A DNA stretch of 64,000 nucleotides from a virus, in the IMG/VR virus record IMGVR_UViG_3300028559_000026, positions 1-64,000 of that record; one strand, written 5' to 3'. The notes under the pieces are model-generated. The model was given only the letters and a program-made list of their open reading frames with translations, did no database searches and was not told where the DNA came from. Every line of letters begins with the position of its first letter. The stretch's first letter is position 1. Position numbers and translations under genes: made by a program. This document shows positions 2,606 to 60,723 of this stretch, piece after piece.

Positions 2606-2783
2606 TCTAGTCCATAAGAATCTCGAATACTCAGACAGTCCGAAATCTTGTTTGTGGGCAAGGTCTAATACAACAGAAGAACGACGGATATTTCTAATGA
2701 GACAGAATCCTAAGCATGCCAAATATATGGCTGAATACGATGCGTGCCTCGCTAAAATAGAAGCACAACTTAAGGAGCCATAG
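2568..2783 (+). CDS. Possible small basic protein
   Basis: Up to 71 residues from GTG 2568, overlapping the previous gene by 38 nt. The C-terminal half (EERRIFLMRQNPKHAKYMAEYDACLAK style) looks like a genuine helical peptide, so the reading frame is probably used, but the start is unclear: ATG 2697 would give only 28 residues. Confidence 0.35.
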   Translation: MESSDQQPCVHVNLVHKNLEYSDSPKSCLWARSNTTEERRIFLMRQNPKHAKYMAEYDACLAKIEAQLKEP

Positions 2784-2918
2784 ATGGAACTATCGCACGA
2801 AGCGTGGACAGTTATATTGATACTGTGGACGGTGGCATGGCTAATGATGCTGCTTGTTAGTGATTGTTGCGCTGTTAACCATAGATATAGTGATCTTGAT
2901 GATTATTTTCCAAATTGA
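2784..2918 (+). CDS. Single-pass membrane peptide, with open frame beyond its UGA
   Basis: 44 residues from ATG 2784, with AAGGAG 6 nt upstream. Residues 8-27 form a hydrophobic Trp/Leu-rich membrane segment. After the TGA at 2916-2918 the same frame stays open for 48 more codons to 3065 and contains a second hydrophobic segment with no ATG of its own. The two halves together resemble a two-helix membrane protein interrupted by a nonsense codon. Readthrough is possible but TGA is an ordinary stop elsewhere here. Confidence 0.5.
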   Translation: MELSHEAWTVILILWTVAWLMMLLVSDCCAVNHRYSDLDDYFPN

Positions 2919-3067
2919 TGGACTAAACGACATCATGCAATTATCACGCTATTCTTTCCGGGGACGTACCTACTATCAGTGCCATACTGGCTATTTATAG
3001 GACTACGCATCATATGTCAGCGTGTCCGCAAACTATGGATTTTGGCAACCACAATTAAGGAGTGAGG

Positions 3068-3532
3068 ATGACTATTAATGAGCAAGTACAAGAAACCATT
3101 GCCAACACCGTCGAGGCTTTGGTTAAAGAGGCGGTAATTGCTGTAGTGAGTAAACCGCTGCTAGAGAAATTGATCAAAGAGAAGATCACGAAGGTTATTA
3201 CAGACTTGGTGATTGCTTGCTGCCCAAATCATGACGATATCAGGACTGCGTTCACTAACGAGCTGAAGCCTATTGTCCGTGAACAAGCGCAGTTGGCTGC
3301 TGCTAAGCTCAAAGCAATTGTACCAGAACGCATCCAGTCTGCTATTGACAAGACGGCATCCTGGGAAATCGAGAATATGGCCAAGGAAGCCGTGGTACAT
3401 ATCATGCGCCAACAGATTGGTGTCATGATTGGTAAGAAAGTGGCCCTGTTGTCGGAGCTATTCGAGAAGGCCATCAATACCACACCTATGGCAGAGAATT
3501 CGGACCCATTCAAACTTCACGACAAGGGCTAG
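3068..3532 (+). CDS. Hypothetical helical protein
   Basis: 154 residues from ATG 3068, with AAGGAG 9 nt upstream. Almost entirely amphipathic alpha-helix with repeated short heptad-like stretches (EALVKEAVIAVVSKPLLEKL, IVREQAQLAAAKLKAIV). No membrane segment or catalytic motif. It may be an oligomeric accessory protein; no function can be assigned. Confidence 0.65.
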   Translation: MTINEQVQETIANTVEALVKEAVIAVVSKPLLEKLIKEKITKVITDLVIACCPNHDDIRTAFTNELKPIVREQAQLAAAKLKAIVPERIQSAIDKTASWEIENMAKEAVVHIMRQQIGVMIGKKVALLSELFEKAINTTPMAENSDPFKLHDKG

Positions 3533-5602: not shown

Positions 5603-6151
5603 ATGAAAATGACAGTATGGAAAATTACTGATTCATCTAATTACACAACAGCATATCACCATATGGAACTTATACACGAATTGCAATGGGGACCGATGGT
5701 GACTCACACAGCCGCTGGTCCAGACTTGGAATTATGTACAAATGGCGCTATTCACGCCTATTTGCACCCTATGTTAGCGGCACTTCTTAACCCATTGCAT
5801 AGGCTATGGATAGCAGAAGCTGATATTGATGGTGGTATTGTACCGCCAAACTGGCAGACTGATTGTTCTAAAATTGGTGTTCGTACTTTAACCACCATCA
5901 AAACAGTCGATTTTCCCCAAATTATGGTTGGGGATATTATGAAACTGATTGACGCTGCTGGCATATCTCCCGAAGACCTCAATCATCAAAATTATGGGTT
6001 TTTTAGATACTGGAACAAGCATTTTCGACACAAACAGATCGCCTGTAATTATCGAGCGGCATCTTTCATGGCGGAGCTGATTCAGCTATGTCCGAATATC
6101 TTGCATATTCTCAATGAGAATTGGCCCGTCAACCAGGATGGTGTTGTATGA
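5603..6151 (+). CDS. Phage conserved protein, paralogue of the next gene
   Basis: 182 residues with GGAG 9 nt before the ATG. It shares with the next gene an N-terminal VWKIT/LWKLT strand, DLELCTNGAIHAYLHP, LAALLNP.H and IGVRTLTTIK. The pattern LC..G.IHAY..P.LA.LLNPIH is known to me from many phage hypothetical proteins but has no established function. Tandem copies lie between the AAA+ and VWA genes, so they may be adaptors or substrates of that pair. The stop overlaps the next start (ATGA). Confidence 0.7.
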   Translation: MKMTVWKITDSSNYTTAYHHMELIHELQWGPMVTHTAAGPDLELCTNGAIHAYLHPMLAALLNPLHRLWIAEADIDGGIVPPNWQTDCSKIGVRTLTTIKTVDFPQIMVGDIMKLIDAAGISPEDLNHQNYGFFRYWNKHFRHKQIACNYRAASFMAELIQLCPNILHILNENWPVNQDGVV

Positions 6152-50058: not shown

Positions 50059-50070
50059 AATCCTTAGATT
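50056..50070 (-). promoter_or_regulatory. AATCT-N7-ATG promoter-like element
   Basis: AATCT at 50066-50070 (minus), spacer AAGGATT, ATG at 50058. It overlaps the stop codon of the GGDEF gene, so it is an internal promoter; AAGGA also forms a ribosome site. Confidence 0.6.
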
Positions 50071-51046
50071 ACTTGCCTACGAGACTATCACCCGCAACAT
50101 AGACAGAATCAGACGCCTGCTCATTAGAATCTTTATATTTACCATGTTTAGCTATGACCATTGCCTGTCTAGCGGATTCCAAGGAATTTCCAATACCTGC
50201 GGACATGGTAATTTTGTACGAACCACCTACTGCGGGTAATTCTTTCTCACCCTCAATTAGCTGGCGTAGAAACAGAAAAGCATCCTCTTTGGAGTCCATA
50301 AAAAGCACAAAGCAATCGCCACCATCCCGAAAACTATCACCATGAGCTAACTTAGCTACCAAGCCACCAAACGCCACAATTGCTTCATCAGCCTCTTTCC
50401 AGCCAACTTCGTTAGCCTTATGGAAATCATTAAGGTCCAGGCTGATAACCACGTTGGTTGGCTTAGAGCGCTCTAGTGCCAGAAGGTTTCCAAAGGAAGG
50501 TATCATCATATCTCTAGTCAAGTCATCATCCTTTGGTTCTGGGGCTTTCTCTTCAGCTTTATGTAGTGCATCGGGTGGGCGATGGTATCTAAGTGTAGCC
50601 ACACCTTTATGCACATTACTCAGAATAGTCGATGCTTCTGCTGGTGAAAGGGCATGACCATTTAGAATCAACACATCGCCTTGTGATTCAAGAATTTGTG
50701 GTTGTGACATGCCGACCTTCATATACTCAAATACAGAAGGTATTTCATTGGCCACATCTTTTGGCATTTCCTCTAGCTTCGCTTCTGGGATTTCTGAATC
50801 ATCCTTGTCTTGCATGTATGAATCCCACGGACGTACCAAGATATACCTGGAATTCATCTGGTGAAGCAATGCGTTGCGGGCAGTTTCATTAAATGGACCA
50901 TCTGGCATAGCCTGTCTAAGTCTATGACCATGATAGTCCTCAATCACTTTGGTCTTGCCATCACCCACCACCACCCGGCCCATACGGTTTTTAAGTAGTT
51001 GGCTGCCAGAAGTCTTTAGTCTGAAAAAGCTGTAAATTCCATTCAT
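50069..51046 (-). CDS. Degenerate GGDEF-domain protein
   Basis: 325 residues. The C-terminal 160 residues align with GGDEF cyclases: VVISLDLNDFHKANEVGW (metal Asp, substrate Asn), a helix with ADEAIVAFGGL, then FRDGGDCFVLFM (near 237-248) and SAGIGNSLESARQAMVIAKHGK. The signature reads GGDCF, so the catalytic Glu/third position is Cys; the inhibitory RxxD before it appears as SFRDGG. It may be an inactive sensor, a binder of cyclic dinucleotides or a cyclase with altered specificity. The N-terminal 165 residues are unassigned. Located among head genes. Confidence 0.7.
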   Translation of the reverse strand: MNGIYSFFRLKTSGSQLLKNRMGRVVVGDGKTKVIEDYHGHRLRQAMPDGPFNETARNALLHQMNSRYILVRPWDSYMQDKDDSEIPEAKLEEMPKDVANEIPSVFEYMKVGMSQPQILESQGDVLILNGHALSPAEASTILSNVHKGVATLRYHRPPDALHKAEEKAPEPKDDDLTRDMMIPSFGNLLALERSKPTNVVISLDLNDFHKANEVGWKEADEAIVAFGGLVAKLAHGDSFRDGGDCFVLFMDSKEDAFLFLRQLIEGEKELPAVGGSYKITMSAGIGNSLESARQAMVIAKHGKYKDSNEQASDSVYVAGDSLVGK

Positions 51047-53061
51047 TATTTGCGCTCCGGCAATGCTGCTGTAAATACCTGTTTACGTGTCGGTTGTCCA
51101 TGTCCGCGAATTGCACCTTGCACACTACGCAGTCTGTGTCCCGCTTCTGCAGCCAAATCGGCATCTACACCATTCTTGATGAGGCTGGCTTCTAGGTGTT
51201 TACTGTCTAGCTTGTTAGCCCACTCTATGGCTGCTGGGTGTATTGGGTTTGGTCCAGTATCCACGTTACCCTTGTCGCTTAATTCCCAATAATGCGGTAG
51301 CGACCTAGAGCTGTTTTCAAATAGCATCTCATTATCTATTAGATGTAGTCCATTTTTAGAAAACAGGTAATTATTGGCATGGCGGTCATGTGACCCCATC
51401 ACTGCATCCATAATCCCTAACTTATCCAAATCACCATTACCGGTAAGATTAGAAATTATATTTTTTTGATGCGAAGAGTCGCGAAGTTTTGAATAATCAG
51501 GCCAATGCACATCAGCATGCTCTGCACCATCCACAGCGTTCTGAATAGTGAATCTGTTGTTACCATATATCGACGTAGTGGGATGTGAAAAAGCTGCTGT
51601 GGTTGGTACGTATTGGCCTAGACCAAAGAAGTCTCTAGCCATGTTATGAAAAACAGCCTCGTGTCCATTGCCAGACTCATCATGCTTCATATACGCCAAA
51701 CCACCTTTAGGTGAACGGACCCATCCACTTTGTTCTTCATTGATACCAGCCAAAAAGTGTGATGGTTCAGAAGCACGCCAAGTAGCTGTATCAGCACCAT
51801 GAATCAAAGCTCTTTGCTCTGGTGATGTATTAAGATGTGCTATGCCGTGCTTATCTGCATCCATCTTAGGTTTGAAAGAATTATTCATCCAGACCTCATG
51901 GGCATATGCAACATTTTTGAAATGGGTACCCTCTTTGTTCTTAGGCAGCTTGACTACAGTATTTGGCTCCTTGCTTGGAATAGCTAGGTAATGTGTCTTA
52001 TTATCCTTGACAATGGTGTATTGCTCGTCTTTTGAGTGTGCAATGCCGGGATGGACGGGCTCACCACGAAAATATATAACCTTAGCTGCGGGCTTGGCTT
52101 GATTATCCATATCATTTTTAAGTAGCATTACCACCTGTTCCATCTTGAACAGAGCCATACTGTCAGTCGATGCAACAATGACTGGTACACAGTACAGATG
52201 GTAGGCGAGTAGTGATGCGACCAACCCACATTGCTGCCGGACCTCTTCCAGAATTTGAATGAATTTGCTAGACTGTGTACCAACATCAGCCTTTTCAAGA
52301 GTGTTGATGCCATACTTGTCAACAATATGTGCTATCTGGCCCATTACATTGCCATGCAAAGCAGAACCGGATAGCTGTGCATCGTACAATGGCCGAATTA
52401 GCCTGTCGAGAATGACTGCGGGAAATAGAGCCTGTTCTGGGTCATCCGTTAGCGCTGGATACTTGTTAACCACAAAGTGATATGCCGGGTGGTCTTCCAT
52501 CGACATATCATTAGTGCGAGTAGCTTTGTCATCCAGCTCTTGGATAGAATCATAAACAGGCATATTCCCGACACCCAGCATACATAATGCCAAGAGTGGG
52601 ATATTAGGCCATTCCAGTCCGTCTTCCCTAGCTGTCTGGGATAGTTCTGTTAGCTCATTTTGCTTTTGGTCGATTGTTTTGAGCTTGGCGACATCTGGAA
52701 TGTGTTTTTCATTTCTCGAAAAAACGGTGTTAGCCTTGTAGTAAGCTCTATTCCATTCTGGAAGTTCACCACCATTAGCACCTTTGACAAATACGTCAAT
52801 GTTGATGGGTTGTGCTAGATCAGTGCCAGTAATAGCATCCATCAAATGACCATAGTTTTTAACCTCTGGTATTGAATTGAAATTTGGCATAGCGGCAGCT
52901 ACAAAAGCAGCTTGACGGATAAGATACGGCGAAGACCTACCAAGAGACAGGGCATGGTTAAGTGGAAGCCATTGGGCCATAAATCGACCAAACTGCTTCA
53001 AATCAGCGCTGTTCAATATAGTGTTGTAGGTATCTACATCGTCGATATTGTAATCATACAT
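51046..53061 (-). CDS. Large head-cluster protein with kinase-like C-terminus
   Basis: 671 residues. The first 300 are helical and unassigned. About 420-600 carry the kinase-like module: GGLAYMKHDE (possible Lys), GHEAVFHNMARDFFGLGQYVP (Glu helix), DAVMGSHDRHANNYLF (about 555-570) and GLHLIDNEMLFE (metal Asp). A C-terminal helical region ends in a basic tail. One-base overlaps with both neighbours (51046 and 53061) indicate a single operon. Function unknown; it forms the third member of the kinase-like set. Confidence 0.65.
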   Translation of the reverse strand: MYDYNIDDVDTYNTILNSADLKQFGRFMAQWLPLNHALSLGRSSPYLIRQAAFVAAAMPNFNSIPEVKNYGHLMDAITGTDLAQPINIDVFVKGANGGELPEWNRAYYKANTVFSRNEKHIPDVAKLKTIDQKQNELTELSQTAREDGLEWPNIPLLALCMLGVGNMPVYDSIQELDDKATRTNDMSMEDHPAYHFVVNKYPALTDDPEQALFPAVILDRLIRPLYDAQLSGSALHGNVMGQIAHIVDKYGINTLEKADVGTQSSKFIQILEEVRQQCGLVASLLAYHLYCVPVIVASTDSMALFKMEQVVMLLKNDMDNQAKPAAKVIYFRGEPVHPGIAHSKDEQYTIVKDNKTHYLAIPSKEPNTVVKLPKNKEGTHFKNVAYAHEVWMNNSFKPKMDADKHGIAHLNTSPEQRALIHGADTATWRASEPSHFLAGINEEQSGWVRSPKGGLAYMKHDESGNGHEAVFHNMARDFFGLGQYVPTTAAFSHPTTSIYGNNRFTIQNAVDGAEHADVHWPDYSKLRDSSHQKNIISNLTGNGDLDKLGIMDAVMGSHDRHANNYLFSKNGLHLIDNEMLFENSSRSLPHYWELSDKGNVDTGPNPIHPAAIEWANKLDSKHLEASLIKNGVDADLAAEAGHRLRSVQGAIRGHGQPTRKQVFTAALPERK

Positions 53062-56000
53062 TACATACTCCCGCGACCTTCTCTAATCCTGGCTTGCTCT
53101 AGTAGCTTAGGAATAGCGTAGCGATAATAAAGAGTCAGGGCTGGCATCTCACCATATTGTCTAACCCAATCGGCATGCTGTTTAGCAGTCTGTGCAGGCA
53201 CTGTGGTATCAATCTCACTCTTCTTTACATTCAGAAAAGGATTGACAGCTTCCCAATACGGTGTGTGGTCTGTATCGGCATTCATACCAAAGGTTTTCAT
53301 TCCTCTGGCTTCCTCATGTGGAACAATACTCATCCAGTGTTTCCAGAATGCTGGAAATACCGCAGATTCATCGTTGTGAAATAAACCTGCGTACTTGGGA
53401 TGATTGCGCATATGCTTAACAGCGTCATGGTGTTTGGCGTAATACCTGTCAATGCCGTTCATAACTTCGGAGTTATTGGGCTCCCACAAAACACTCTTTA
53501 GATGCTCAATAGTATTAGCATCAGCACCTTTCTCTAGGCCGAATAGATGACGGACAAAATGCGTATCGGGCACAACTGAGTTAGCACCACCAAGCATGCC
53601 ATACATATATCTAGCGGTCTTAGGAGCTAATCCAGGCACATCTGGACCGTTATAGGGGCCGATATCTGGCTTGCCTGCAGAAATAGCCCTATCACGCTTA
53701 GCCTTATGCTTCTGGCTATTCTCTTTATGCAGCATCAGCTCTTGGATAGCTGAGCGGGTATCGTCCTTGTGGCGGTTTACTAGGTCTACAAGCGATTGGT
53801 GTAGGCCATGGTATTGGGCCATGTTTTTCAGCTTGTTATTAGCAAGCATAAAACTCTGTACTTGTCCAGCGGTGCGACCAACTTTACCAGTAGTGGCTGA
53901 AACATAAGGCTTGGTACTGCTCTGATATTGGCCGTTAACCAATTTACCAATACGCACGGATGGACCAAGGTTTTCAAAATAAGATCTTCCAGTCACTGGC
54001 AGGGTATCGGGCTTGTCACGGCTAAGCCAATCTGGTCCCACTTCACCTTCAAACTTAGGGCTGGTGGCGTCGATACCCTTATCCTTCATGGAATCAACTA
54101 GATGGCTATTGCTAGTGATAATGCCGTTAGGCAGTAGGAAGTTGTGCTTTACGTGGGCAACTTCAAGATCGTACATTTGTCGTTGGCCCACGGGACGCCA
54201 TCGTACAACGCCCCGACACACCAAATTCCTGGTGTTGGAGATTGGAGAATCCGAGTAAGCCAGATCATGGCACCTTCCTTCATTTTCTTGGTTCTGCTTG
54301 AGAAATTCTCCATCGAGAGACGGATTAGAGTGATATCGCCCCTCCGTAAAGCCTCTTGATTTAGAAGCATGTCCCGGTGCTGGCGATATTGCAGATTTTT
54401 CACAGCCGATTCTTTTTCCGAACCTGAAAAAAAATGCCAAAATCCGTCCACTTCTATCCATATGTTTTCGTGGACTAAATCCACCTGTTTGACAATATCT
54501 CCACATTGAATCAGTCCCGATGTCCAACCCAGTTGCCCTTTTAACTCCTCTTCGATATAGGAATGAGAAGAAGCTGAAGTTTGACCAGCGGCGATAAACT
54601 TTCTTGCAATATTCCCGAATTCCTCTGGATGGGTTTCGCGCCATTCCTGGCCCAGAATCGACAATTGGGTATAGTTGTCCCGAAACTCCTCTGGATGTTC
54701 CAGTCTCCACTTCTTGGCCGCCGCTGTTAATTTCATGGCATGCCATTGGACCATGGCTGGATGCCTCTTTTGCCATTTCAGCATTGCTTGACTGGCCTTC
54801 TTTTGGCGCTCCAGAAACTCGTCTCTCTTTTCCACTTCCCATTTGCGAATCCCCACCATCATCAATTCGGGATTCTGTTCTTTCCATATTTTCTGTGCAG
54901 CATGGGCTTGTTGAAGTAATGCCTTGGATTTCTCGGGATTCTGAACATGCCATTGCTTTGCCGATTCTACACGGGCTGTGGCGCGTATATCCTTGCATGC
55001 CTGACACTCTTTCCGATGCGCCTTGAACAGCACTTCTGTCCGAAATGTTTGACCACAACGGCTGTCCCAGCCCGTCGTCCTTGGTTTTTGTGGCACTAAA
55101 AATCTCCAATCCAGAAGCAATTATTTGGGAAATCGGCACCATTCCTTGGGTGGTCAAAAACTTGTGATTTTGAGAACAAACCACACGATAACCATCCGAA
55201 AACTCGACTTCTATAGCTTCCATAGCGCCGTGGTTGTGGAGTGCTACTACTTCCGTAGTAATAACTTCCCCATTCTGACTTACTCCAAAAACCTTGTCCC
55301 CTGGTAGAAAATTCTTGATTTTCTTGATTGTGTTGTCGCATGTGCTTAAATTTGTGTCCTGATCGAGACAAAACATGATTTCCTGCATCGGAACTGGCGT
55401 GTTTCCAGTTACGCATACATGACCACTTCTTCTCATAAAGAAAAAGGTGTTAGGCACTACTGGACACCACATACCGACCTTACCTACATATCGACGGATA
55501 TGTCTCTTGTCTAGCTTAGCGTGCTTCTGTCGTAGCTTAGTAACCCAAAACTGAGTACCATCATGTGTTATCGAGGATGCGTGACCCAATATAGTGAGAA
55601 AAGCCTGCTCGGCATCAGCGCGTTCTTTGCTCTTGGTCACCATGGTTTTGGTATTATACTTACGGGTATAGGCTGCCCACTCCCCATCTTTATCAACCAC
55701 TGCCATATGTTGATACAGACTCGATATATGCGATACGTCTGGGGTAAAGCCATTATCGTCCAGTCGGGATTTGGCAGTGCGATGAATTAGGTCTGATGGA
55801 TTAATAGTTACAGAGGTTTTCTCCTGTACATTATTCCGACCAGACTTAACCAACCAGCGATGGTCAGGCGTAGTGATGGCATGAAACGACCTTGACTTAA
55901 GCTCGACCAGAGGGCCTTCATAATCCGGGAAGAATCGCAGATCAGTGGGCTTTTGCCATTCCGCCATGCCAGTCTTGGGATTCTTGGTTAAAATCCAATC

Positions 56001-57347
56001 ATCCATAGTTAGATCGAAACCCTTGACCCACCCTCGTTTCGTCAGTGCTTCCGTCTCGGCATCCAGGCAGTTAGGGCTAAGTTGTGAAAACAAAGTACCG
56101 TGCATAACCACTTCTGGCGGCAACTGTCCAGCTTTTAGCAATCCATTGACCTTGGACCAATTGTCCATGGCCTTGTCGTGGAAAGCTGACACCTTGGGAT
56201 CATTCATAATTTTATCGAACGATTCCTTACCCCTTGCATCAGGATCACGCGAAGGGATGTACATAGGGAAAGAGCCTTGTGGCGTGTGTAGTACACCAGT
56301 GCCCTCATCAAAGAAACTCTTAGAGAGGTGCTGATTGGGCGCTACCTCCTTGCCACGAATGGTTAAATTAGTGCTTGGAGTGGCTGCAGGCGCTTCTGTG
56401 GGCCCTGTTTCCTGTGCTGGTGGTGGAGTGACCACAGCTGGCGGCTTCTTGGCCTTGGGCTTCTTTGCGGGCTCAGCTTTCGCTAGTGACTTTTTGACCT
56501 GATAGTCCTCAGCTAGATCGGCGAAGCGATCCAGAAACGAGTCGTCAGCTTCTGGGAGTCGGGACTTGAGAAGTTCACGAAATTCAGCTTTTACAAACGG
56601 TTTGGAGTAATCCCTAATGGTTGCCAGAACCACACCTTTCATACGCTTCATTACATCCTCCCTTACCAATGGGGATGACGCAGGAGCGCTCCCGTTTCCA
56701 GCAGTCAAAGTCTTAGATAGCACAATTGGATCAAAAGCAACTGTTACCGCACCAAAGGTTTTGATAATATCGCCATTTTCGTTTCTGGCTAAAATCCCCT
56801 CAATTAGAGAGGATGATGCGTCTTTCTTTTTATCTGATTGCGGATCGAAGACTACACCAGATACACATGACTTATTACATGGCTTAACAGTACAGGCTAC
56901 TTTGCGGGCGATGGATCGCTCTAGGCGGTTGCCATTCTTCTTAAGAGTAGAGCCCTCGATACTATAACGGCACAGTATTTTCTCATTGTTCTTGACGTGA
57001 TCACGGATTTGTGCTGCTAGTGCGATGGCTCCTGGATGGCCTGAGCCATCATACAGGCGTGACTTAATGTAGATGTATGGCAACTTAACCATATTCCAGT
57101 AGTTACGCTGTCTCTGGTCCGAGGCGTCTTCCTCTTTGAAAATCTTTTTGGCATAAATGATATGGCCTACATTGTCGTTTGCTGACGCACCTTTAGCATC
57201 CTCGCCTCGGTGTTCCCAATTCAGTAGACCATCGCCATTTTCTAAAGATGAAATATCGCATCCTTCAACATCTAGGATTTCACCACTAGAGTCAATCGCT
57301 TCAGACGCTGCAATACCATCAATTATCATTCCCGTTCCCGTCGTCAT
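53061..57347 (-). CDS. Prohead protease-like fusion protein interrupted by two inteins
   Basis: 1428 codons; 784 residues after removal of two inteins (residues 427-649 and 660-1080). The N-terminal ~190 residues fit XkdF/prohead serine proteases (IDSSGEILDVEGCDISSLE, GLLNWEHRGE with the candidate His, GHIIYAKKIF, and CRYSIEGSTLK with the candidate Ser). A Lys/Ala/Pro-rich linker containing LAKAEP follows. The C-terminal half resembles HhH-GPD DNA glycosylases (MHGTLFSQLSPN, KTARYMYGML, then PDTHFVRHLFGLEKG), with an end VKKSEIDTTVP. Both inteins sit in the LFSQLSPN...SHLVDSM segment, a conserved spot as inteins prefer. Splicing would control protease or glycosylase maturation. The glycosylase call is tentative. 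Confidence 0.7.
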   Translation of the reverse strand: MTTGTGMIIDGIAASEAIDSSGEILDVEGCDISSLENGDGLLNWEHRGEDAKGASANDNVGHIIYAKKIFKEEDASDQRQRNYWNMVKLPYIYIKSRLYDGSGHPGAIALAAQIRDHVKNNEKILCRYSIEGSTLKKNGNRLERSIARKVACTVKPCNKSCVSGVVFDPQSDKKKDASSSLIEGILARNENGDIIKTFGAVTVAFDPIVLSKTLTAGNGSAPASSPLVREDVMKRMKGVVLATIRDYSKPFVKAEFRELLKSRLPEADDSFLDRFADLAEDYQVKKSLAKAEPAKKPKAKKPPAVVTPPPAQETGPTEAPAATPSTNLTIRGKEVAPNQHLSKSFFDEGTGVLHTPQGSFPMYIPSRDPDARGKESFDKIMNDPKVSAFHDKAMDNWSKVNGLLKAGQLPPEVVMHGTLFSQLSPNCLDAETEALTKRGWVKGFDLTMDDWILTKNPKTGMAEWQKPTDLRFFPDYEGPLVELKSRSFHAITTPDHRWLVKSGRNNVQEKTSVTINPSDLIHRTAKSRLDDNGFTPDVSHISSLYQHMAVVDKDGEWAAYTRKYNTKTMVTKSKERADAEQAFLTILGHASSITHDGTQFWVTKLRQKHAKLDKRHIRRYVGKVGMWCPVVPNTFFFMRRSGHVCVTGNTPVPMQEIMFCLDQDTNLSTCDNTIKKIKNFLPGDKVFGVSQNGEVITTEVVALHNHGAMEAIEVEFSDGYRVVCSQNHKFLTTQGMVPISQIIASGLEIFSATKTKDDGLGQPLWSNISDRSAVQGASERVSGMQGYTRHSPCRIGKAMACSESREIQGITSTSPCCTENMERTESRIDDGGDSQMGSGKERRVSGAPKEGQSSNAEMAKEASSHGPMACHEINSGGQEVETGTSRGVSGQLYPIVDSGPGMARNPSRGIREYCKKVYRRWSNFSFFSFLYRRGVKRATGLDIGTDSMWRYCQTGGFSPRKHMDRSGRILAFFFRFGKRIGCEKSAISPAPGHASKSRGFTEGRYHSNPSLDGEFLKQNQENEGRCHDLAYSDSPISNTRNLVCRGVVRWRPVGQRQMYDLEVAHVKHNFLLPNGIITSNSHLVDSMKDKGIDATSPKFEGEVGPDWLSRDKPDTLPVTGRSYFENLGPSVRIGKLVNGQYQSSTKPYVSATTGKVGRTAGQVQSFMLANNKLKNMAQYHGLHQSLVDLVNRHKDDTRSAIQELMLHKENSQKHKAKRDRAISAGKPDIGPYNGPDVPGLAPKTARYMYGMLGGANSVVPDTHFVRHLFGLEKGADANTIEHLKSVLWEPNNSEVMNGIDRYYAKHHDAVKHMRNHPKYAGLFHNDESAVFPAFWKHWMSIVPHEEARGMKTFGMNADTDHTPYWEAVNPFLNVKKSEIDTTVPAQTAKQHADWVRQYGEMPALTLYYRYAIPKLLEQARIREGRGSM
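54108..55370 (-). other. Intein 2 (421 residues, hosts an out-of-frame endonuclease gene)
   Basis: Begins at Cys (CLDQDTNLSTCDNTIKKIK; block A) and has block B VEFSDGYRVVCSQNHKFLTT. Block F/G lies near the end (RQMYDLEVAHVKHNFLLPNG, then IITSN) and is followed by Ser. The penultimate residue is Ser, not the usual His. The roughly 290 residues between block B and F have no LAGLIDADG or HNH motif. Their composition (Ser/Gly/Arg/Cys-rich, TGTSRGVSGQLY style) is that of a shadow frame, because a real endonuclease is encoded there in the +1 frame. The frame has no stop across the whole region. Confidence 0.85.
54149..55096 (-). CDS. Vsr-like (EDxHD/DUF559-type) homing endonuclease nested in intein 2
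   Basis: 315 residues from GTG 55096 with GGAG 7 nt upstream, in a frame different from the surrounding intein. The N-terminus has a zinc-finger-like CGQTFRTEVLFKAHRKEC. Residues about 45-165 repeat KxWxxxHPEEF/NPE motifs (IWKEQNPEL, KWRLEHPEEF, EWRETHPEEF), probably DNA-binding. Residues about 173-265 form the nuclease: SYIEEELKGQLG, QVDLVHENIWIEVDGFWHF, QYRQHRDMLLNQEALRRGD, with Asp, E-V-D and W-H as in Vsr/EDxHD homing enzymes. The last ~30 residues overlap intein block F codons. It would cut intein-less alleles and promote homing. Confidence 0.8.
   Translation of the reverse strand: MPQKPRTTGWDSRCGQTFRTEVLFKAHRKECQACKDIRATARVESAKQWHVQNPEKSKALLQQAHAAQKIWKEQNPELMMVGIRKWEVEKRDEFLERQKKASQAMLKWQKRHPAMVQWHAMKLTAAAKKWRLEHPEEFRDNYTQLSILGQEWRETHPEEFGNIARKFIAAGQTSASSHSYIEEELKGQLGWTSGLIQCGDIVKQVDLVHENIWIEVDGFWHFFSGSEKESAVKNLQYRQHRDMLLNQEALRRGDITLIRLSMENFSSRTKKMKEGAMIWLTRILQSPTPGIWCVGALYDGVPWANDKCTILKLPT
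55401..56069 (-). other. Intein 1 (223 residues, no recognisable endonuclease)
   Basis: Begins at Cys (CLDAETEALTKRGWVKGFD; block A), block B VELKSRSFHAITTPDHRWLV with the T-x-x-H element, and ends GHVCVTGN before Thr, so the +1 nucleophile is Thr. The penultimate residue is Gly instead of His. The ~110-residue linker (SLYQHMAVVDKDGEW and on) is too short and lacks LAGLIDADG, HNH or Vsr motifs, so it is a mini-intein. Ten extein codons (TPVPMQEIMF) separate it from intein 2. Confidence 0.85.
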
Positions 57348-57843: not shown

Positions 57844-58573
57844 CGTGGTCCTTTTTAATAAAGGTTACTCGCCCGTCGTCGCCAAAGCCATATCCAGGCA
57901 GGAGCATGACTAATGAACAACGGCAGTATGGATGAAGACCGCTAACGCTAGGTTTATTATCGCCTTTCTTGTGATATCCGTGTTGTAGATCGCTCATTTT
58001 CCAGACAATTGGCTTGCCATCAGGGCGAAGGTGTAATCGACGACATTCTTTGCACATAAACCCATCACGAACAGTGACAAAGTATACTGATGGGTCGTCG
58101 ATGTTCATTGATGAACTAACTTTGACAATGCCGTCCAAAGTACCAGTATTTCGAGCAGTGGTGCTTTCAGTGTCGATAATGCGCTTGACTGCATCAGAAG
58201 TTTTAGCAAAGATTTCCACCAATTGTCCACCTAGCAAGGTATTTGGATTGCCTTCAGGATTGGTCCTAACGAAATTTTCAATCGTTTTGACTACAACAGC
58301 CTTAGCTGTATCCCGTTGTGAATTGATATGATTTTCAGCTATACTCATCACTGAATTTAGCAGTTCTTTATCTGGGGACGTATTGCCCTCGTTTACTGAT
58401 GAGGAAACATACAAATTGGGCAAGGAAAACTGCATACCAACCTGTTTCCTGGTCAGTCTCAGAGAATCGGATTTATCTGCTGGCTTGCCTAAGAACTTAT
58501 CCTTAAGGCGAGAAAACACAGCATCAATACCTTTCTCTATTTTAGAGATTTGGGCTGGTGATAGAACTTTCAT
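57824..58573 (-). CDS. Minor head protein (SPP1 gp7 / Mu gpF-like)
   Basis: 249 residues. Helical N-terminal two thirds, then the family signature: DTESTTARNTGTL, VYFVTVRDGFMCKECRRLH and SGLHPYCRCSLV, matching the E.....N, D..vC..C and P.HP.CRC blocks. Members sit inside the portal vertex region and aid DNA packaging or ejection. Encoded directly after the portal (ATGA overlap at 58570-58573), its normal location. Confidence 0.85.
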   Translation of the reverse strand: MKVLSPAQISKIEKGIDAVFSRLKDKFLGKPADKSDSLRLTRKQVGMQFSLPNLYVSSSVNEGNTSPDKELLNSVMSIAENHINSQRDTAKAVVVKTIENFVRTNPEGNPNTLLGGQLVEIFAKTSDAVKRIIDTESTTARNTGTLDGIVKVSSSMNIDDPSVYFVTVRDGFMCKECRRLHLRPDGKPIVWKMSDLQHGYHKKGDNKPSVSGLHPYCRCSLVMLLPGYGFGDDGRVTFIKKDHDEYSNQ

Positions 58574-60723
58574 AGAGTGTCCAAGGTTTCAGTCACCAGT
58601 TTCTCAAAATCCGTATTTAGACTTTGTATCAGTGACTGAACCATATTTCTTTGTTTAGCCAGCATCTTCTTTTTGGATGGTGGTAATTGTTTTTCACTCT
58701 TAGATAGCAGACCAAGAGCCTGATCAATGGATCGAGTCAAATCGGTTGTCTGCGGCTGCTGGTCGTTTTGTACGGGGTCTTCGTCCCCCGCATTTGTAGC
58801 CTGTGCTGCGCCTTGCGGAGCTTGGTCCCCTGGCTGGCCTTGGGAAGCCTCTGCAGGCTGTGCCTGACCACCCCCTTGGGGTTGCCCTTGCTGCTGTCCT
58901 GGAGCGCCTTGCTGTGCCTGCTGCATTTGTTGCTGCTGCATTTGCTGCTGTGCTTGCATAGCTTGCTGTTGCTGGAAAAAGAATGGATCGCGTACGTAAT
59001 TCCATTTCGGGTCTTTGGAGGCATTAGCCATACCAAAGAAGGTTTCCAAAATAACACCTACAGGCACGTACTTATCCATAATGGCCTGCAACTGCTGATT
59101 TAAGGGGAAGTCGCCGCCGACCATATTAGGCAAGGGCTTCTTTTCCACACGACCCAAGATTTCGTTGTAGGTCATATGGACGGCCATATCTTGCTGGATA
59201 CGGACACTTTCTTTTTCTGCAGTTTCTGCATCCAAACCGACCAGCTTTAGCACACAAATCTTGCTTAGCTCGTAGTCGATAAGGGGCATGATGTCAGTAT
59301 TGAGAAAGTCCTCAAACTGCTTGACTAGGGGACGTATACCTAAGTCACGATGCGCCTCAAGGCGGTACTCGTTATTGCTTTCAGACAGTGCTTGGTTGTT
59401 GGTACCCTTGCTGAGATAGGCCCACCCAGGCAATTCTTCAGGACTCATCTGGAATGCGGACAGAATCGCTCTGGCGTTCATATCTGATAGATACTGAAAC
59501 TCCATATCCCGAGTACCAGAATCAATGGCCTGCCAAGCGACTTCATCTTCACTACCAACACCAAAGACAGGCATTCTCCACGAATTCTGGACAGAGTTAA
59601 TGGATGCCTGAAACTGTTGCTTAATGTGAGACACCATATGTTCGTCGGCATCATCACTCTTAATAACAATCATGCCACGGGTGGCGCGACCAGATTGAAA
59701 ATATAGTTTATTGTGCGACGTGATATTGATGTGTGTCGTCACCTGAGTCAGCATTGTATCCAGTGGGGTAACTGGATATCCATTCATCTCCCAATCCAAA
59801 ACTGGATAGAAATTCTTTACCAATAACTCATCATCAGTGAATGCCTGACGGGGAGTGCCTTCAATAACCTGAATCCACTGATACTCATCATCAACAAAAC
59901 GGTCGGGATTTAGCTTTTCATTACGAACCTGCTCAAGCAAGCTCTTGCTTGATTCACGGATACTTTGTGCTGCGTTACCATGTGGTACACTCTTATAGAT
60001 AGTTCCAGCATCAACTGGTCTAAAACCATAAAATTCCCACTCGCCAGTTTGCTCATCTAGGTTGCGCACTACTTCTACAGCAATACGACCCACAACCAGT
60101 GCGTTTCGGGTAGTCTGATACAGAAATTCATTAAAGGACAGGCGTGCTTCTTTATCCCACCCCTCCTGAATACCACAGTTATTAACCAGCTTAACTGCCT
60201 TACTGATACGCTTCTGGATACCTTCTTTCTCCTCGGTAGTCATATTTTGGAGATGTGACTTGGTGGGCTCAATCACAAAACCTGGACTAAAACGGTCATC
60301 TCGTGGTCTACCAAACACCGACATTTGGTTAGAACGTGCCTGTACAATACAAGCCACCAGCTCATCTTGAATGGAGATACGCTTCAATACGCTGTCAGGC
60401 AGTAGGCGGGTCTTTTGCTTATAAATACCGTGATACTGGTCCCCATTGGTGGGGTCTACTTCAAAAGCCAGCCGCTCGATGGAATTGGATTCACCATCGA
60501 GCTTACGATTAAGTGCTTGTGCTTTGGATAGCTTTACAGTCTTGTCAGTTTCATCCTTAAACATATCCGATTCATCAAGCCTATCAACAAAACTTACCTT
60601 AACGCTTTTAGGCTTAGGTTTTACAGCAGATAGTGTGGTAATGGCCTGCTGAGCTTTGGATAGCTCTGAACGAGTATCATCCAAACTCTTCTTTAAGGTT
60701 TCAAATTCTTTGTTCTTACGCAT
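58570..60723 (-). CDS. Portal protein
   Basis: 717 residues. A coiled-coil start, the portal core (HGIYKQKTRLLPDSVLKRIS, LVVGRIAVEVVRNLDEQTG, EFYGFRPVDAGTIYK, LSKGTNNQALSESNNEYRL, LRPLVKQFEDFLNTDIMPL-like) and a Gln-rich, then charged, C-terminal tail (QQQAMQAQQQMQQQQ segment near 580-640). The core is about 500 residues, typical of phage portals; the Gln/Pro/Gly-rich tail is an extension. It forms the dodecameric DNA entry channel. Gene neighbours (terminase upstream, minor head downstream) agree. LSKSEK occurs near the end. Confidence 0.9.
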   Translation of the reverse strand: MRKNKEFETLKKSLDDTRSELSKAQQAITTLSAVKPKPKSVKVSFVDRLDESDMFKDETDKTVKLSKAQALNRKLDGESNSIERLAFEVDPTNGDQYHGIYKQKTRLLPDSVLKRISIQDELVACIVQARSNQMSVFGRPRDDRFSPGFVIEPTKSHLQNMTTEEKEGIQKRISKAVKLVNNCGIQEGWDKEARLSFNEFLYQTTRNALVVGRIAVEVVRNLDEQTGEWEFYGFRPVDAGTIYKSVPHGNAAQSIRESSKSLLEQVRNEKLNPDRFVDDEYQWIQVIEGTPRQAFTDDELLVKNFYPVLDWEMNGYPVTPLDTMLTQVTTHINITSHNKLYFQSGRATRGMIVIKSDDADEHMVSHIKQQFQASINSVQNSWRMPVFGVGSEDEVAWQAIDSGTRDMEFQYLSDMNARAILSAFQMSPEELPGWAYLSKGTNNQALSESNNEYRLEAHRDLGIRPLVKQFEDFLNTDIMPLIDYELSKICVLKLVGLDAETAEKESVRIQQDMAVHMTYNEILGRVEKKPLPNMVGGDFPLNQQLQAIMDKYVPVGVILETFFGMANASKDPKWNYVRDPFFFQQQQAMQAQQQMQQQQMQQAQQGAPGQQQGQPQGGGQAQPAEASQGQPGDQAPQGAAQATNAGDEDPVQNDQQPQTTDLTRSIDQALGLLSKSEKQLPPSKKKMLAKQRNMVQSLIQSLNTDFEKLVTETLDTL

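Follow-up and report, generated by a model that had tools for sequence, protein, structure and literature searches.

A phage intein with a putative endonuclease gene nested in its +1 reading frame

The DNA analysed here (the window, 64,000 nucleotides) covers positions 1 to 64,000 of IMGVR_UViG_3300028559_000026, a virus record of 76,487 bases. The minus strand of the window, which also carries all parts of the intein described below, contains an open reading frame of 1428 amino acids (53061..57347) that adjoins MuF-like and portal genes and holds two inteins. This paper is concerned with one of these, intein 2 (54108..55370), and with a second gene that lies inside it in the +1 frame and appears to encode a Vsr-like endonuclease. 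The host gene occurs without inteins in the homologues L002-L005, which place the insertion points at SPN|TPVPMQE(L/I)M(Y/F)|(G/S)HLVD. Intein 2 is an in-frame insertion, the same point is empty in L002-L005, and the intein-free site of L005 reads TPVPMQELMYGHLVD.

Intein 2 and the gene nested in it

Intein 2 has 421 codons with zero stops, starts with a cysteine (C1) and ends SN|S. The N-terminal splicing domain (IntN, blocks A-B, 92 amino acids) is found at 55095..55370, on the basis of TIGR01445 and of an alignment with the Npu DnaE intein. The C-terminal splicing domain (IntC, blocks F-G, 45 amino acids) is found at 54108..54242, and over its first part both frames are coding. The two domains match Pfam PF14890 (Intein_splicing) with an E-value of 3.9e-9, and the intein also matches TIGR01445 and TIGR01443. 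Residues 31-97 and 109-139 of the Npu DnaE intein (2keq) align to amino acids 26-91 and 390-421 of intein 2. These conserved blocks suggest that intein 2 splices. A preliminary description of the window had put the whole element at 54149-55370, which is right for the start of the intein but omits its last 41 nucleotides, the true end being at 54108.

Between the splicing domains the intein frame runs through a segment of about 284 amino acids (54243..55094) that is open but shows no conservation beyond chance, and which we call the shadow. The ~290 residues between the domains match no family when read in the intein frame and, in agreement with the preliminary description, profile searches found no endonuclease fold or match in that frame, so intein 2 is not a bifunctional in-frame intein. 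Because the intein frame is unbroken over its 421 codons, the host gene and the intein are not split into two open reading frames. The shadow is hydrophilic, being rich in Ser, Gly, Glu and Arg. Its hydropathy is that expected from the overlap alone, and a test for extra selection on hydropathy found none (mean z 0.1).

The +1 frame is open from 55120 to a stop at 54149. The gene within it (54149..55096) starts with GTG at 55096 and encodes 315 amino acids followed by a stop, and a Shine-Dalgarno-like GGAG (55104..55107) lies 7 nucleotides before the start codon. A zinc-finger-like motif, W...C...H...CxxC (54995..55069), is conserved in most of the endonuclease alignment and gives a weak match to a CTCF zinc-finger profile (E 0.035). 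It is followed by helical repeats with tryptophan and NPE-HPE motifs (54587..54955), recognised from the sequence and from AlphaFold2 helices at amino acids 54-172, which are a putative DNA-binding region. The C-terminal part contains a Vsr/EDxHD-like nuclease domain (54242..54574). Residues E182, K203, D206, E215, D217, G218 and H221 are invariant across nine endonuclease homologues, and the acidic residues and the histidine among them are putatively catalytic. The preliminary description had reported the 421 open codons, the complete +1 reading frame with its GTG and GGAG, the zinc-finger-like start, the W..HPEEF repeats and the string VDLV...EVDGFWHF...HRD, and all of these are present.

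An AlphaFold2 model of the endonuclease was built from the nine-sequence alignment and has a mean pLDDT of 80.6; prediction without an alignment gave 43.8, so the nine-sequence model was used instead. In this model the nuclease core has the order helix, three strands, helix, strand, helix and sits behind long helices. A Foldseek search of the PDB returned E. coli Vsr (1vsr) as the highest-probability match, with a probability of 0.77 but an E-value of 0.062. Predicted viral proteins named as homing, restriction or DNA mismatch endonucleases are matched at probabilities of 0.97-1.0.

Relatives and the constraint on each frame

The first relative was found with a degenerate DNA pattern for E-x-D-G-x-W-H. 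The phage contig on which it lies has a copy in dnaE and a second at the identical site of a homologue of the host gene. On the contig IMGVR_UViG_3300037520_002447 (L010, L011) dnaE and the head gene each contain a dual-coding intein of the family. Further loci came from alignment-based searches, and duplicates were removed before counting. The resulting non-redundant set of 19 nested loci comes from 18 phage contigs and involves three host genes; without exception the endonuclease occupies the +1 frame and the intein frame stays open. Three loci are in the host gene of the window (the window itself, L011 and L035), two are in a sigma-factor-like gene (L014, L019), and 14 are in dnaE (L016, L017, L018, L020, L022, L043, L044, L049, L051, L052, L053, L072, L073, L074). 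DnaE domains were confirmed for L016, L018 and L049, the other dnaE loci being called by the FNK|SH site and its flanks, and the spliced extein of L014 matches phrog_351 (E 7e-4). An early scan based on the endonuclease did not require an intein, and an intein was present at all 11 of its loci. Some members of the family (L020, L022, L049, L051, L052 and L054) have Thr in place of Cys or Ser at the start of the intein.

Searches with single queries gave no relative. The window endonuclease found nothing in phages (tblastn), viral contigs or prokaryotic genome contigs, its nuclease domain gave chance-level matches only in phages at E-values up to 10, and IntN alone found nothing in viral contigs. 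A three-protein alignment found no member in prokaryotic genome contigs from 84,980 species, in a search of limited sensitivity.

The open intein frame was examined by keeping the endonuclease protein fixed, permuting its synonymous codons and counting stops in the intein frame. The window copy has 0 stops where a mean of 13.4 is expected, and 0 was never reached in 20,000 permutations; the third frame has 16 stops with 16.4 expected. In 26 other genes of the window this alternative frame is never free of stops for more than 99 codons. Across the 19 loci there are 0 intein-frame stops against about 267 by synonymous permutation (8-21 per locus). The avoidance can be seen in codon choice, as T-ending codons before AA, AG or GA number 0 of 505 in the first nine loci, compared with 500 of 1438 elsewhere. 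Three homologous endonucleases in fractured dnaE genes (L075, L078 and L079) provide a natural negative control, having 23, 36 and 37 stops where 31, 47 and 33 are expected (96 in total against about 110). Stops are therefore avoided only in continuous inteins. With 19 non-redundant loci, neither chance openness nor an assembly artefact is tenable.

The constraint on each frame was assessed by simulations over 16 loci, in which one protein was held fixed and the codons were redrawn; kinship between the loci was ignored and the third frame served as a control. In the central part, where the endonucleases have a mean identity of 36% over the 16 diverged loci, identity in the intein frame is 19.2%, where the endonuclease sequence by itself predicts 17.7%. 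The non-coding third frame has the same small excess (21.0% against 19.9%), and we therefore regard the shadow as filler, a view in line with the preliminary description, which had called it a shadow translation.

The picture over IntC is different. The overlap at 54152..54242, where the endonuclease tail SPTPGIWCVGALYDGVPWANDKCTILKLPT lies over IntC, is constrained in both frames. In the last 45 codons of the intein, identity in the intein frame is 56.7% compared with 27.3% expected with the endonuclease fixed, and identity in the endonuclease frame over the IntC region is 49.6% compared with 24.6% expected with the intein protein fixed. Judged by these simulations both frames are under selection at once here, as had been proposed for block F. 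In most loci the endonuclease stops 8 or 11 nucleotides before the end of the intein, so that almost the whole of IntC is double-coded; in the window copy the distance is 41 nucleotides. At L044 (5275-6336) the endonuclease frame extends 49 nucleotides beyond the end of the intein, into the dnaE C-extein.

Distances between endonucleases co-vary with distances between splicing domains (Mantel r 0.74, p 2e-4). Copies that share an insertion site cluster together in the endonuclease tree, where those of the head gene and of the sigma-like gene form sister clades.

Expression, decay and alternative readings

Intein 2 is very probably a member of a phage intein family characterised by a +1 endonuclease gene that is nested between the splicing domains and overlaps them, two products being made from the same DNA. 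The two open frames, the avoidance of stops, the dual constraint on IntC, the conservation across loci and host genes, and a decay that is confined to the endonuclease frame in relics are all shown by the sequences. Splicing, internal initiation, cleavage and homing would complete the picture as follows. Ribosomes on the host gene would read straight through the shadow in the intein frame, and the ~290-residue shadow would form a hydrophilic loop at the usual site of endonuclease insertion, which is the DnaE split site. The DnaE-like halves would pair, the intein would excise itself and the host protein would be restored. Ribosomes initiating at GTG or ATG just after IntN, usually with the help of a Shine-Dalgarno site, would produce a separate protein with zinc finger, repeats and Vsr-like nuclease. 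This nuclease would cut intein-free alleles, and repair would copy the intein and the endonuclease in together.

In most loci the endonuclease starts where IntN ends. A Shine-Dalgarno-like site accompanies it in 11 of 16 loci, compared with 8.7% of background start codons, although the presence of such sites partly guided the choice of start codons. A stop closes the endonuclease frame of L016 and L017 three codons before the ATG, overlapping or abutting the Shine-Dalgarno sequence. These observations bear on programmed +1 frameshifting from the intein frame, which would fuse the endonuclease to IntN instead of initiating it separately and which we consider unlikely. The offset is +1 at every nested locus and the frames overlap, as suits such a mechanism, but the starts are at the IntN end, mostly with Shine-Dalgarno sites, the stops in L016 and L017 leave little room for frameshifting, and inspection by eye, the only kind made, revealed no common slippery sequence. 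Endonuclease and splicing would then be expressed separately. In L017 and L016 a hairpin lies over the Shine-Dalgarno site (z -3.6 at 5929-6028 and z -2.0 at 5941-6040 respectively), a weak one is present in L011, and the burying of the site in L016 and L017 might provide translational control. As a general feature of the family the hairpin was rejected, being absent in the window copy (z +2.2).

Six relics (L024, L026, L027/L047, L039, L050 and L054) have lost part of the endonuclease. None of the six has a stop in the intein frame and five have stops in the endonuclease frame, a pattern that fits a late stage of the homing cycle and would separate the two functions. According to the preliminary description, homologues without the +1 gene or close relatives with an interrupted intein frame would speak against dual coding. 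The former do exist, but they keep the intein frame open and retain endonuclease remnants, as the homing cycle predicts, and interruption of the intein frame is confined to the separate split-intein clade of L075, L078 and L079. The relics also lend something to the idea that the intein frame alone is functional today and that the +1 gene is a product of chance or a dead relic. We find this very improbable, since an intact +1 frame is found at each of 19 diverged loci, the nuclease residues named above are invariant, and the frame is conserved more than the intein frame explains and gives a model with a pLDDT of 80.6. The opposite idea, that the +1 frame alone is functional, with the host gene interrupted or the insert removed as RNA in the manner of an intron and the open intein frame an accident, draws on the lack of conservation in the shadow but can hardly be right given the 0 stops against about 267 with normal counts in split relatives, the splicing blocks matching DnaE inteins at both ends, the conservation of IntC in its own frame and the open intein frame of the relics. 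The dual coding first proposed from the window copy has gained the support of 19 loci, of stop avoidance with a natural control, of simulations in both directions and of conserved start sites.

Several points weigh against the reading of intein 2 as a dual-coding element. Splicing, separate translation and cleavage are all deduced from sequence, and to the manner in which start codons were picked must be added the five of 16 loci that have no clear Shine-Dalgarno site by the rule used. The endonuclease matches no curated profile and has no Pfam nuclease hit, and the Pfam Vsr model has zero matches in the genome of the window. Assignment to Vsr draws on the predicted fold (best PDB match E 0.06) and the motif, and a homing function with cleavage of the empty allele is likewise a prediction. 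The nested loci are all on metagenomic phage contigs, no cultured phage having been found, and the Thr-initial inteins of the family may splice poorly.

Known systems and neighbouring genes

Dassa et al. 2009 are said to have described fractured genes, in which a free-standing Vsr-like (EDxHD) endonuclease lies between the halves of a split intein. The endonuclease of the window family is homologous and occupies the same place between a DnaE-type IntN and IntC, but here the intein is unsplit and its frame stays open across the endonuclease gene, which for that reason avoids intein-frame stops and overlaps IntC. L075, L078 and L079 resemble the fractured kind. In L075 and L078 an N-extein-IntN reading frame ends and is followed by the endonuclease and then by an IntC-C-extein reading frame starting MAKII...; in L079 the endonuclease comes after the end of the IntN reading frame, and the stretch shown contains no IntC. 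Continuous and split states both occur in the endonuclease tree, separated by one change that may have gone in either direction. Because the shadow is held open by stop avoidance alone, one stop in it and a start before IntC would give a fractured gene with a free-standing endonuclease. Dual-coding inteins may thus be the continuous counterpart of split inteins and possibly their evolutionary source, a proposal to which we give somewhat less than an even chance.

Bifunctional inteins with an in-frame LAGLIDADG or HNH endonuclease also combine splicing domains with an endonuclease at a conserved insertion site. In the window family, by contrast, the endonuclease is in another frame and is presumably a separate protein. 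The phage homing endonuclease I-Bth0305I is reportedly associated with an intron. It is similar in being phage-borne and in joining an EDxHD catalytic domain of the Vsr/PD-(D/E)xK-like kind to extended modules that bind DNA (PMC3943268), whereas the window endonuclease overlaps an intein.

In phage methylase genes, the ShiLan domain and the Pacc40 insertion encode HNH or HNH-like endonucleases out of frame, as reported in 2025 (PMC11855218). As in intein 2, the insertion is open in the host frame and contains an out-of-frame endonuclease with a GTG near the start of the insertion, and its distribution is homing-like (PMC11855218). ShiLan differs in that it has no detectable splicing domains, its endonuclease is HNH rather than Vsr-like and no Shine-Dalgarno site is reported; lacking splicing domains, the insertion is thought to remain in the host protein (PMC11855218). 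The nested arrangement seems to be new for inteins, with ShiLan as the nearest precedent. No precedent for a true intein that double-codes its endonuclease was found in the open-access literature, and an earlier report elsewhere is possible.

If correct, the arrangement breaks the rule that the endonuclease of an intein is part of the intein polypeptide. It would be one of the rare cases of overprinting that are long, old and statistically clear, in which a splicing domain and a nuclease tail are encoded by one stretch of DNA. DnaE-type inteins apparently tolerate an unstructured insert of 200-300 residues. The family would also connect in-frame inteins, out-of-frame insertions and fractured genes, and would open the origin of split inteins to testing. 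As annotation pipelines call only the long frame, endonucleases of this sort will escape them.

The other intein of the host gene is a mini-intein of 223 amino acids (55401-56069, minus strand) at SPN|TPVP, ten extein residues upstream of intein 2, in which no endonuclease was seen. The host product may be a head protein resembling a head maturation protease, an assignment for which the indication is weak and which comes from the match of the host-gene homologue L005 to phrog_1028 (E 0.003). The portal gene is at 58570-60723 and matches phrog_15361 (E 3.5e-17). A neighbouring reading frame (51046-53061, minus strand) has a weak match to PI3/PI4-kinase (HipA-like, E 0.01), and a similar match lies within one fused reading frame in L002, the homologue without inteins. 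In the same head-gene cluster the reading frame at 50069-51046 (minus strand) weakly matches a minimal CRISPR polymerase/GGDEF-like domain (mCpol, E 0.008). In L004 a reading frame at 2630-3304 (plus strand), judged by eye to be a LAGLIDADG-like free-standing endonuclease, is present between the MuF-like gene and the intein-lacking homologue of the host gene.
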